A DNA stretch of 64,000 nucleotides from Intrasporangium flavum. Lineage in GTDB: Bacteria > Actinomycetota > Actinomycetes > Actinomycetales > Dermatophilaceae. Shown here one piece after another: positions 31,447-34,570 of the stretch; the first letter of the stretch is position 1; the number at the start of each line of letters is the position of its first letter. The stretch spans positions 1 to 64,000 of the forward strand of contig NZ_MLJO01000001.1 in NCBI RefSeq assembly GCF_001956915.1, written 5' to 3'. A program made the translations under genes and the position numbers. A model generated the notes under the pieces. The model did no database searches, was not told the DNA's origin, and saw only the letters and a program-made list of their open reading frames with translations.

Positions 31447-31521
31447 TCAGGCGTTGGGCTTGCGGCCGTGGTTGGCGGCGTTGCCCTTGCGCGAGCGACG
31501 CTTGCGGGCGCGCTTGCTCAT
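31447..31521 (-). CDS. Small ribosome-associated protein bL37 (24 residues)
   Basis: A highly basic 24-residue peptide, MSKRARKRRSRKGNA followed by ANHGRKPNA. The NHGKRPNA-type ending is the hallmark of the actinobacterial small ribosomal protein bL37. The ATG has GAGGAG upstream at good spacing. Such genes are easily missed because of their length. It converges on rsrA, with a shared terminator between them. Confidence 0.85.
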   Translation of the reverse strand: MSKRARKRRSRKGNAANHGRKPNA

Positions 31522-31618: not shown

Positions 31619-31651
31619 TTGACGCGCACAAACGTAAAATCTTGGTATAGA
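31619..31651 (+). promoter_or_regulatory. Candidate promoter of the HD-domain operon leader
   Basis: TTGACG (31619-31624) and the extended -10 TGGTATAGA (31643-31651) lie in an AT-rich island. The 21-bp spacer is longer than usual, so only the extended -10 may matter. Transcription would start near 31659 and give an untranslated leader of about 145 nt before the small ORF. Confidence 0.45.
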
Positions 31652-31659
31652 TCCGGGCG

Positions 31660-31803
31660 CTACCGACCGGCTCTACTTCCGTGCGCCTTCACGCTGGTGC
31701 CACGATGAAGCAGAGGGAAACCTCTGTGTTCTTGTGCTACCGCGGCAACGTCCCTCCATGGCGCACGCATCCGGAACATCACCACCTGAAGGAGCCCCCC
31801 ACC
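31660..31803 (+). other. Structured untranslated leader of the HD-domain operon
   Basis: This stretch contains a 6-bp hairpin capped by a GAAA tetraloop (31711-31726, CAGAGG-GAAA-CCTCTG) followed by a T-rich run. No known riboswitch consensus (including cyclic-di-GMP types) is recognised by eye. It ends with an AAGGAG ribosome-binding site (31789-31794) for the 30-codon ORF. It may be an RNA element or a small-RNA gene; this is inference. Confidence 0.4.
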
Positions 31804-31896
31804 ATGTTCGCTGCCCTCCTGTCGGCCCTCGCCGCCACCAACGACTTCACGACCCGCGCGCTCATCTCGTTCGCCAACACGTGGACCTGGAGCTGA
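31804..31896 (+). CDS. 30-codon ORF, leader peptide or small protein
   Basis: The ORF encodes a hydrophobic N-terminal half (MFAALLSALAAT) and ends FANTWTWS. The ribosome-binding site AAGGAG lies 9 nt before the ATG, ideal spacing, which is the main reason to believe it. The two Trp codons near the end recall attenuator leader peptides, but no tryptophan gene follows. A 9-bp hairpin (31925-31957) lies between it and the HD gene. No homologue is recognised. Confidence 0.5.
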   Translation: MFAALLSALAATNDFTTRALISFANTWTWS

Positions 31897-31924
31897 GCGC
31901 AGACCCTCGCCACGTCCAACGGTT

Positions 31925-31957
31925 CGGTCCTGCCACTCGCCAGAAGTTGCGGGACCG
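31925..31957 (+). terminator. Attenuator-like hairpin between the small ORF and the HD gene
   Basis: A 9-bp stem with one G-U pair (CGGTCCTGC against GCGGGACCG) and a 15-nt loop lies 28 bp after the small ORF stop and 25 bp before the next start. It could partially terminate transcription or modulate translation. Confidence 0.4.
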
Positions 31958-31982
31958 ATCCGTCGTGTCGTACGCCTAACAC

Positions 31983-33287
31983 GTGACCAGCAGACCCGAG
32001 CCCGACTCCTCGTCGCGCCTCCTGCCGTACTACATCACCCTCGTCGTCACCCTGTCGCTCGCCGTCGGCCTCGTTGCGTGGGTCTTTGGGCGGCGGCCCG
32101 AAGCAGGTCCCCTCGTGCTCCTGGTCGCGATGGGCGTTCTGAGCTACGTCCTCCGTGAGCCGGACGTCACCTCACGGATCGGGTTCTCGTTCCTCTCGAT
32201 CATCCTGCTCGCCTCCGGGGCGATCCTCGGGCCCTTCGGTGCCTGGTTCGTCGGGCTGAGCTCACAGGCCATCGAGCGCCAGCAGATGGAGTGGTACAAG
32301 CGCCTGTTCAACGCGGCGATGACGAGCATCATCGGCTTGGTCGGGGCCACGGCCTACATCCTCTGCGGCGGGGCGTCCTCGCTCGAGCAGGTGACCGGCT
32401 TCTCCGACCTCGCGCTGCGGGTCGGGCTGCCCCTCATGGTGGCCGACGTCGTCCAGTGTCTCACCAACGCCTTTCTGGTGGCCGGCGCCGTCGCGCTGTC
32501 CCAGCCGGTCCCGTTCTGGGTCTTCGTCCGCCGGATCCTCGTCAGCTCGGGCGTCGCCTACATCGGCTACGGCATCATCGGCTTCCTTTTCGTCGTCCTC
32601 TGGTACCCGGCCGGCCTCGGGGCCTTCAGCGCCCTGCTCGTCATGGCGCCGCTGCTCGCCGCCAGGTGGGCCTTCGTGCAGTTCGGCGAGGAGCAGCGCT
32701 CCCACGAGCGTGTCGTCGAGACGCTCGTGACCTCGCTCGGCACCAAGGAGCCGCCCGCCGTCGAGCGGAGCGCCCGCGTGGCGCAGCTCGCCGAGTGGAC
32801 CGCAGAGGAGCTGGGGCTCGGGCCCCGCCAGATCGCGACGGTCACCTACGCCGCCACCCTCCACGAGATCGGCCACCTCGGCGTACCGACGCGCCTGCTG
32901 CGCCGGGCGCCAGGTGCGCTGACCGAGTCCGAGCGGCGCATCGTCGACCGGCACAGCGTCATGGGCGCGCGCATGATCGAGGGCATCGAGTTCCTCGAGG
33001 AGGCCCGTTCCGGTGTCCGCCACCAGCGTGAGCGGTTCGACGGGCGCGGGCTTCCCGACGGGCTCGCGGGCGCCGACATCCCTGTGGCGGCGCGCATCGT
33101 CGGCGTCGTCACGGCAGTCGAGGCCAGTCTGCCCGAGGACGTCGGAGGTGCCCCGCCGTCGGCCGAGCTCTACCGCATGCTCACGACCGACGCCGGCCGC
33201 TTCGACCCGGCCGTGGTCGACGCCGCGTGGGCCGCGCTCCACAAGCACGGCATGCCCACCGGGGCGGGGGCGGTGAGCGCGTCATGA
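31983..33287 (+). CDS. Membrane protein with C-terminal degenerate HD-GYP-like domain (first of a pair)
   Basis: A 434-residue protein. Residues about 12-235 contain seven or so hydrophobic helices (for example ITLVVTLSLAVGLVAWVF and IGYGIIGFLFVVLWYP). The cytosolic part (about residues 250-425) has HD-GYP layout, but LHEIGHLGVP replaces the usual HD with HE, DGRGLPDGL replaces GYP with GLP, and TAVEA replaces the DAYDA acidic motif. Cyclic-di-GMP hydrolysis is therefore doubtful; a sensory or binding role is possible. The GTG at 31983 has no obvious Shine-Dalgarno. Its stop overlaps the next start (ATGA). Confidence 0.8.
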   Translation: MTSRPEPDSSSRLLPYYITLVVTLSLAVGLVAWVFGRRPEAGPLVLLVAMGVLSYVLREPDVTSRIGFSFLSIILLASGAILGPFGAWFVGLSSQAIERQQMEWYKRLFNAAMTSIIGLVGATAYILCGGASSLEQVTGFSDLALRVGLPLMVADVVQCLTNAFLVAGAVALSQPVPFWVFVRRILVSSGVAYIGYGIIGFLFVVLWYPAGLGAFSALLVMAPLLAARWAFVQFGEEQRSHERVVETLVTSLGTKEPPAVERSARVAQLAEWTAEELGLGPRQIATVTYAATLHEIGHLGVPTRLLRRAPGALTESERRIVDRHSVMGARMIEGIEFLEEARSGVRHQRERFDGRGLPDGLAGADIPVAARIVGVVTAVEASLPEDVGGAPPSAELYRMLTTDAGRFDPAVVDAAWAALHKHGMPTGAGAVSAS

Positions 33288-34570
33288 GGCTGGCGCTCTA
33301 CCGCGACCCCGTGGCCCTCGTCGTCGGCCTGCTCGGCCTGGTCCTCAGCGTGGCCGTGGCCGTGGGCACGGGCGACTCGCCGGGCCTCGACGGGCAGGTG
33401 TCGTTGCTCGTCACCGCGGCGTTCGCCGTGACCATCGTGCTCGGGGAGTGGTTCCAGCTGTCCGCCCCGGGCTTCCGCGGATCGGCCCCGATCGCCACGG
33501 CCACCGCGCTCGCGTTCGCCTTCGCCGTCCAGGTCGGGCCCGTCGAGGTGGCCTTCTCGACGCCGTACGTGCTGGCGGTGACGTCGGTGTCCATGGCGCT
33601 CGGCGCGGGCGCGCGGGTGCTCGGCGGGCGGGAGGTCAGCCTCGTCGAGACGACCGGCCGCTTCATCGCCGTCGCCGTCGCGGCGCTGCTCTACCGCAAC
33701 GTGCACCTGGGGCAGAGTCCCGGCGGCCCGCCGCGCGACGACACCCTGGTGCCGTGGCAGCGAGCCATGTTCATGCTCGCTGTCTGCGTCGCCGCCCTCG
33801 TCGCCGACACCCTGTTCACCTCGGTCCTGCGGGCCACGGCCACGGCCGACCTGCGCCGCACCTTCGTCGACGAGGCGCGGTCCTCCTTCGCCCTCTCCGG
33901 CGCGGTCGCGGTCACCGGGGTCCTCGTGGCGCTCGCCCTGCCGACGCTCGGCGTCATGGCCCTGCCGCTGTTCATCCTGCCGCTCGTGCTCACCCTGTTC
34001 GCCTTCCGTCGCTACGTCAGCATCCGCGCCACCTACCTGCAGAGCATCCGCACGCTGTCGCGCCTCACCGACGCCGCCGGCTACACGCCCTCCGGGCACT
34101 CGGAGCGGGTGGCTGCCCTCTGCGTGCGCGTCGGGCGGCAGCTGGGCGTGTCCGAGCGCGACCTGCTCGACCTCGAGTACGCGGCCCTGCTGCACGACAT
34201 CGGCCAGGTGGCCCTCGTCGAGCCGATCCCGGGCGGGGCCACGGTGCTGGCCGCCCCCGCCGACCAGCGGCGGATCGCCGCCGACTCGGTGGCCATCGTG
34301 CGCGAGACCGGCGTCTTCGAGGGGGCGGCCCGCATCCTCGAGCACCAGACGACGCCCTACCGGCAGGTGCGCGAGCTCGGCGAGGAGATCCCGCTGACGA
34401 GCCGCATCCTCAAGGTCGTCAACGCCTACGAGGACCTCACGGCCGGGGCTCGGAGCGCCCGGGCCCGGGAGGCCGCGGTTGAGCGCATCTACCTCGGCCT
34501 GGGCTACGAGTACGACCCCCGCGTCGTCGACGCGCTGCTCGGCATCCTCGGCTCGACGCAGCAGGACTGA
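33284..34570 (+). CDS. Membrane protein with HD domain (second of a pair)
   Basis: A 428-residue partner with the same layout: hydrophobic helices to about residue 245 (LVVGLLGLVLSVAVAVG, VMALPLFILPLVLTLFAF), then an HD domain. Here the metal dyad is intact (GHSERVAAL ... LLHDIGQVAL), but the later part, ILEHQTTPYRQV and ILKVVNAYEDLTAG, lacks a GYP motif. It may hydrolyse another nucleotide or act as a regulatory partner of the first protein. The ATG overlaps the first gene's stop, so the two are made together. No GGDEF-domain gene is in the window. Confidence 0.82.
   Translation: MRLALYRDPVALVVGLLGLVLSVAVAVGTGDSPGLDGQVSLLVTAAFAVTIVLGEWFQLSAPGFRGSAPIATATALAFAFAVQVGPVEVAFSTPYVLAVTSVSMALGAGARVLGGREVSLVETTGRFIAVAVAALLYRNVHLGQSPGGPPRDDTLVPWQRAMFMLAVCVAALVADTLFTSVLRATATADLRRTFVDEARSSFALSGAVAVTGVLVALALPTLGVMALPLFILPLVLTLFAFRRYVSIRATYLQSIRTLSRLTDAAGYTPSGHSERVAALCVRVGRQLGVSERDLLDLEYAALLHDIGQVALVEPIPGGATVLAAPADQRRIAADSVAIVRETGVFEGAARILEHQTTPYRQVRELGEEIPLTSRILKVVNAYEDLTAGARSARAREAAVERIYLGLGYEYDPRVVDALLGILGSTQQD

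Follow-up and report, generated by a model that had tools for sequence, protein, structure and literature searches.

Organisation of the locus

The stretch of Intrasporangium flavum DNA analysed here, hereafter the window, comprises 64,000 nucleotides from a genome of 4.2 Mb in 58 contigs, and contains a 30-codon open reading frame (ORF) directly ahead of two genes for HD-domain proteins, HD1 and HD2 (Table 1). The ribosome-binding site stands nine bases before the ATG of this ORF, whose TGG codons at 31882 and 31888 are its fourth-last and second-last sense codons. HD1 starts at a GTG codon and carries the domain PF13487 (HD_5, E=2e-30); among the relatives found, the closest named ones are from Terrabacter tumescens (74%) and T. 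aerolatus (70%), which NCBI taxonomy places in the Intrasporangiaceae. A preliminary description of this region, made from the letters alone, had listed a GAAA-capped hairpin, a small ORF, its ribosome-binding site, two terminal Trp codons and a hairpin ahead of the HD gene, all of which are present in the sequence as described. On the opposite strand lies a small gene encoding MSKRARKRR..., which we take to be a ribosomal bL37/AURKAIP1-like protein and which lies, divergently oriented, within 1500 bases in 71 of 81 order-level loci, compared with 0 of 53 others.

Table 1. Features of the peptide–HD1–HD2 locus, in coordinates of the window.
Feature	Coordinates	Strand	Description
Divergent small gene (MSKRARKRR...)	31447..31521	-	Customary upstream neighbour in close relatives
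Conserved promoter/operator-like block	31634..31652	+	GTAAAATCTTGGTATAGAT; upstream of peptide gene; 18-base core TAAAATCTTGGTATAGAT at 31635-31652
GAAA-capped hairpin	31711..31726	+	CAGAGG-GAAA-CCTCTG; start of leader core; GAGGGAAACCTC invariant in 10/10 leaders
5' leader core	31713..31778	+	Hyperconserved in Terrabacter-type genomes
Ribosome-binding site	31789..31794	+	AAGGAG; invariant in ten aligned leaders
Peptide gene	31804..31896	+	30 aa, MFAALLSALAATNDFTTRALISFANTWTWS, ending NTWTWS; member of the Trp-tailed micropeptide family
Terminator-like hairpin	31925..31957	+	9 bp including one G-U; between peptide gene and HD1
HD1 (HdgA-like)	31983..33287	+	ECF-S-like membrane domain (predicted) joined to an HD-GYP-type domain whose catalytic motif is degenerate; proposed receptor
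HD2 (HdgB-like)	33293..34570	+	Second HD protein of the pair; HD_5, E=4.7e-13; start inferred (longest ORF starts at 33227)

A family of Trp-tailed micropeptides precedes HD1 relatives

HD1 relatives were present in 62 of 97 related genomes. Directly upstream of HD1, most of the loci that we read carry a short ORF that is preceded by a ribosome-binding site and ends in a Trp motif. The N-termini of these micropeptides are very different from one another, and their tails take forms such as ...LANTWSWGS, ...FADTWTWDL, ...SIWGWGG, ...VIGWNPGPGGK and ...VVSWED. The counts cover 134 HD1 loci, neither a random sample nor independent of one another: they were collected from the strongest matches downwards, and the window and several congeners are among them. 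In 105 of these loci the upstream ORF has a Trp within its last five residues, against 2/86, 4/91 and 9/76 in three sets of windows placed elsewhere in the same loci, largely in coding sequence. With the same ORF limits, W.W or WW stands at the tail in 84 of the 134 loci and in 1, 0 and 2 cases in the three control sets. Under slightly different ORF limits, W.W or WW occurs within the last 14 residues at 79/134 loci, versus 1/134 reverse complements and 1.1% of dinucleotide shuffles, and any Trp in that stretch at 119/134, versus 26/134 and 25% respectively.

The Trp criterion behind these counts was set after the first relatives had been viewed, and part of the loci were read only later. Five loci whose upstream sequence was too short (L025, L057, L184, L087 and L090) and eight same-genome repeats were excluded beforehand, and ten loci that we call Streptomyces-like on the basis of genome size alone and five HD-only loci were counted apart. 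An automatic procedure picked a peptide ORF at 125 of the 134 loci; the hand-curated list of peptides used below also has 125 members and is not identical to that pick. The suggestion in the preliminary description that the ORF encodes a real small peptide is strongly supported, and applies far more widely than to a single locus.

The family extends beyond the close relatives of the window. Using the N-terminal membrane domain alone (alignment A3) as query and keeping matches at E ≤1e-6, we obtained matches in 40 of 297 genomes at the level of the order, 115 of 394 at that of the class and 51 of 296 at that of the phylum. At class level a form of 20-21 residues is common (e.g. MKKIVSAIEQFLQSNANWRWD and MKKITAAVERMLSAEAAWSWR), and there are also 28-mers ending GWSWW, the 13-mer MFKMLLEPGVSWR and the 10-mer MQINSNWKWA. 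Beyond the class, micro-ORFs that end or nearly end in Trp, such as MKTKIIVLLSSLAALILGGGAGWRW, were seen in 7 of 15 loci, a count made without a control set. Three loci (L125, L126 and L129) carry two consecutive small ORFs before HD1, encoding MGKLRSV(L/I)EQFLSAGSTAKWE and MREENWKWG.

No W.W ORF was found at the ten Streptomyces-like loci that have the receptor (L145-L154), where any Trp in the last 14 residues is as frequent as in reverse complements (2/10 in both), nor at the five loci whose HD proteins have no sensor domain. At most of the ten Streptomyces-like loci, a recurrent motif near TCACCCGAAnGTGCTAATC can be seen by eye between the upstream gene and hdgA. Searches with Pfam and NCBIfam profiles gave nothing above the cut-off for the window peptide and six relatives. 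Codon-level selection on the ORF is weak in the Terrabacter group and does not belong to our principal lines of evidence. The pooled pN/pS is 0.61, and pN is the smaller value in 62 of 66 pairs; for ten ORFs of equal length the ratio is 0.79 in frame, and the two remaining frames give 0.86 and 1.21.

The peptide follows the sensor domain rather than the output

Among the weak A3 matches were six larger proteins in which GGDEF and EAL motifs occur (L115-L120), and ORFs such as MKKWNLLNNSTVVRATASASTIVAVAVIVGAGFKWT precede four of them. When the membrane domain of these GGDEF-EAL-type proteins was itself used as query, matches were found in 80 of 345 class genomes. We assembled 36 such loci from the best-scoring 30 of that search and the six from the A3 matches (GGDEF seen in 36/36, EAL by a loose triplet only in 35/36), and a Trp lies within the last five residues of the upstream ORF in 17, against 1/36 reverse complements, 10% of shuffles and 0/33 control windows. 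Eight of the loci have two tandem Trp-tailed ORFs, an arrangement seen in 0.6% of shuffles. The ORF is missing from the other 19 loci: all 17 positives fall among the 19 loci nearest the query, and the more distant 17 have none. In one branch, therefore, the same kind of peptide stands beside the same kind of membrane domain joined to a different output, and the peptide follows the sensor domain, not the output. Upstream of four GGDEF-EAL-type genes (L225, L227, L228 and L230) we also noted a candidate small ORF with a shared CPxGFAKW...GRTL, in which the Trp is not at the very end.

Precursor architecture

Within 12 of the 125 hand-curated peptides, the Trp-containing core is repeated exactly. 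Repeats were picked as identical amino-acid strings, and what is observed is the synonymous drift between the copies: five precursors (L013, L019, L023, L040 and L094) have copies differing by at least two synonymous codons, the differences amounting to 5 of 10 codons for TWWWHPRPVA (L023) and 5 of 9 for SRFWWYHSA (L040), with fewer in L013, L019, L043 and L094. The copies in L014, L037, L098 and L099 are identical in DNA and so may be recent duplications. Across four species of one genus (g32), both copies have changed together, reading RGWGWGG, RGWTWTG, RGWEWRG and RGWDWKG. A further locus, L186 (5216-5891), contains three tandem precursor genes with unrelated N-termini and the common core GPQSAWSW. 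By a heuristic hydrophobicity-plus-AxA rule, 17 of the 125 precursors have Sec-like signals and 22 have no hydrophobic stretch (membrane helices, by comparison, were taken from the structural model). The distance from the last Trp to the stop codon ranges from 0 to 12 residues.

These properties bear on whether the ORF might encode a small membrane or membrane-bound subunit, one that remains attached to HD1 and permanently occupies its pocket instead of acting as a released signal. Such a subunit would suit the many versions that begin with a hydrophobic or amphipathic helix and end at the Trp motif, among them MKTKIIVLLSSLAALILGGGAGWRW and the 28-mers ending GWSWW, and also the linkage to the sensor domain. 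We nevertheless consider it unlikely, given the 12 precursors with repeated cores, the three tandem precursors of L186, the 17 Sec-like precursors and the 22 peptides that have no hydrophobic stretch at all.

Transcription units

The intergenic sequence between the peptide gene and HD1 folds more stably than expected at the window (z -3.49) and at many of 66 order-level loci (mean z -2.38, 26/66 below -3), compared with a mean z of -0.44 and 4/43 below -3 in other families. A -10-like box of the leaderless type, 4-9 bases before an in-frame HD1 start, is present at 22 of 125 loci, the window not being among them, versus 2.7% of shuffles. Because of these hairpins and leaderless -10 boxes, the peptide gene is probably a short transcription unit of its own.

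Peptide-mediated attenuation was another of the three options left open in the preliminary description. In a regulatory leader the ribosome would stall at the Trp codons (attenuation), or the nascent Trp tail would arrest it, so that the HD gene is controlled in cis. The layout at the window, with a short ORF, terminal Trp codons and a hairpin ahead of the HD gene, resembles Trp/TnaC-type leader peptides, and arrest peptides likewise combine a variable N-terminus with a conserved C-terminus. Among the 125 peptides, however, the last Trp keeps no fixed position relative to the stop, as sensor codons or an arrest motif would, and the genes directly downstream are not trp genes, both being genes for HD-domain proteins. 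Attenuation is further disfavoured by the duplicated cores, the Sec-like signals and the -10 boxes before HD1, and the leader idea in general by the three tandem genes of L186 and by the scarcity of strong hairpins in other families. We therefore regard control in cis by this ORF as improbable, and the locus as not mainly a leader.

The sensor domain and its HD output

In the structural model of the window HD1 (pLDDT 89.8), six helices of membrane type are followed by a seventh, long one that leads into an HD-GYP fold, which aligns with that of DvhD (9rbz_A) at Z 21.0 over 193 residues (rmsd 3.7). When the N-terminal domain was modelled alone (pLDDT 90.1), the top 21 structural matches were all chains of ECF S-components, at Z 10.5-14.4, with the next match at 7.4; the best of them, 4m5b, aligned over 183 residues at Z 14.4 (rmsd 3.3), values to be read with the aligner's caveat that Z up to 14 also occurs among unclear helical models. 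Sequence identity to these chains is 9-17%, and Foldseek E-values for the domain are weak (best 6.7e-3). By prediction, then, the membrane domain of HD1 has the fold of an ECF S-component. S-components, such as NikM/CbiM, FolT, RibU and ThiT, take ligands from outside and work with EcfT and an ATPase module, whereas the domain considered here is fused to signalling domains, either HD or GGDEF-EAL.

In place of the HD and HHExxDGxGYP catalytic motifs, the window HD1 has HE and HQRERFDGRGLP, and the same degeneration (HE, HQxERFDG) is found in the Humibacillus/Intrasporangium/Terrabacter loci that form the window clade. About two thirds of HD1 reads keep the motifs (LHD in 62/91, HH..GYP in 60/91, among reads of more than 400 residues that include some genomes twice and one protein without the sensor domain). 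Of 14 long loci, 11 have a relative of HD2 adjoining HD1, and one of these is Streptomyces-like (L195).

A tandem of this kind has been described in Streptomyces venezuelae, where HdgA (6TM-HD-GYP) and HdgB (6TM-degenerate-HD-GYP) are encoded by adjacent genes, very likely in one operon; both proteins are reported to be membrane-bound and expressed and to have no developmental phenotype, and the authors of that report think that activating signals were missing (PMC6205966). The window resembles this system in having two such genes in tandem, and differs from it in that no W.W small ORF was found at the ten Streptomyces-like loci and in that HD1 of the window clade is itself degenerate. Orthology of HD1/HD2 to HdgA/HdgB rests on layout and on the one Streptomyces-like long locus.

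The region upstream of the peptide gene

The AT-rich promoter of the preliminary description has to be modified. Its TTGACG (31619) and TATAGAT (31646) elements are separated by 21 bp, a wider spacing than a standard sigma-70 promoter allows; what is conserved is a promoter/operator-like block that overlaps the second element. The 18-base core of this block is exact in 5 of 11 close relatives and changed by one base in the other 6, and a degenerate pattern allowing ≤2 mismatches matches once in the source genome, against 0 in the control. In several relatives (e.g. L011, L013 and L017), a varied, direct-repeat-like TCAAGA-N5-TCAAGA lies upstream of the peptide gene and is perhaps a regulator site.

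Downstream of the block, the 5' leader of Terrabacter-type genomes contains a core in which 55 of 66 bases are invariant across ten aligned rows (the window with L063, L064, L068-L073 and L078), compared with 17 of 59 in the preceding part of the leader and 38 of 93 in the ORF that follows. RNA from 31650-31982 folds better than shuffled sequences (z -2.70, with 1 in 100 shuffles as good). Covariation analysis of aligned leaders, which the preliminary description had proposed as a check, lent no support to a leader structure, since one of 32 pairs had changed on both sides and no useful covariation was present. Its remark that no known RNA class fits agrees with our scans: at gathering score, Rfam 15 matched within the window only a tRNA elsewhere, and a permissive scan of the leader region gave as its sole match a lncRNA at E=3.2. 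A known RNA family was accordingly rejected for the leader. A riboswitch regulon was rejected too, because the genome holds the leader core only once. No exact match to the core was found in one viral-contig scan.

The CCCTCC of the leader and the GGAG within the ribosome-binding site are complementary and, judged from this pairing, CCCTCC could mask the site that serves the peptide gene. The ligand-binding RNA of the preliminary description accordingly keeps some standing for the Terrabacter-type clade alone, in which the 5' leader might be an RNA switch that masks the ribosome-binding site and adds to the peptide rather than replacing it. Beside the complementarity, the 55 invariant core bases speak for such a switch; the lack of covariation, the single genomic copy and the absence of the core, by eye, from two Humibacillus leaders (L065 and L067) speak against it, and on balance we find it possible but doubtful.

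Discussion

We propose that the small ORF encodes a signal peptide and that the neighbouring HD protein is its membrane receptor, controlling c-di-GMP enzymes, a reading to which we assign a probability of about 0.6. It is based on the repetition of cores within precursors, on the precursors that stand in tandem, on the Sec-like signals and on the association with a membrane fold of a ligand-binding type that is found with two outputs. The peptide would be exported, via Sec where a signal sequence is present, and the tail with the Trp motif, in one or several copies per precursor, would be the active part. This tail may then bind an outward-facing pocket in the S-component-like domain of the HdgA-like HD1, and binding would alter the cytoplasmic HD-GYP domain and with it c-di-GMP turnover. 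At related loci a GGDEF-EAL-type protein would be driven by such a sensor domain, which there has a Trp-tailed peptide of its own. Since the HD-GYP catalytic motif has been lost in the window clade, output there would probably run via nucleotide binding or the partner HD2. The analysis itself shows the ORF family, its association with a sensor domain that carries either of two outputs, the core repeats, the signal-like sequences and the predicted fold, whereas expression, export, processing, binding and the effect on c-di-GMP are what we infer.

The strongest points against a peptide ligand are the hydrophilic versions, for which no exporter is known, the absence of the ORF from Streptomyces-like loci and from distant GGDEF-EAL loci, and the weak codon signal in the Terrabacter group. 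The DNA-identical repeats of four precursors, the scarcity of strong hairpins in other families and the weak Foldseek E-values also count against it. A modified natural product or bacteriocin, with HD1 and HD2 serving immunity or control, would account for W.W cores and multi-core precursors, which resemble those of RiPPs; the recurrent partners, however, are HD1 and HD2 (as judged from neighbour labels covering five query proteins only), and we consider a product of this kind very improbable.

Among known peptide systems, the proposed ligand and receptor are most readily compared with the double-tryptophan pheromones of streptococci, ComS/XIP and their receptor ComR. The ComS precursor is very short and its C-terminal Trp motif is active. 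The two systems are alike in these respects and in the adjacency of the receptor gene, and differ in that the streptococcal receptor is a cytosolic Rgg-type regulator, whereas here it would sit in the membrane and combine an S-component-like domain with an output of the cyclic-dinucleotide type. Rgg/ComRS-type systems have an Rgg regulator next to the peptide gene; the adjacent gene at the window encodes an HD protein.

We advance more tentatively, at slightly under an even chance, the broader proposal of a peptide signalling class that spans the phylum Actinomycetota, in which micro-genes of 9-76 codons carry species-specific cores and the Trp tail serves as ligand for receptor domains of the ECF-S-like kind, themselves fused to enzymes of c-di-GMP metabolism (HD-GYP or GGDEF-EAL). 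A search of open-access papers found no description of this peptide family. Genes of 9-30 codons that recur across a phylum form a class missing from the protein-family libraries that we tried (Pfam and NCBIfam).

If the proposal is correct, the peptide would supply the input signal of HdgA-type proteins, whose ligand would be encoded next door in most of the lineages sampled, including ones in which the catalytic motif is intact. It would define a pathway from peptide to c-di-GMP with neither a two-component nor an Rgg intermediate, and a new control of a major second messenger, through a ligand that could be synthesised and tested directly.
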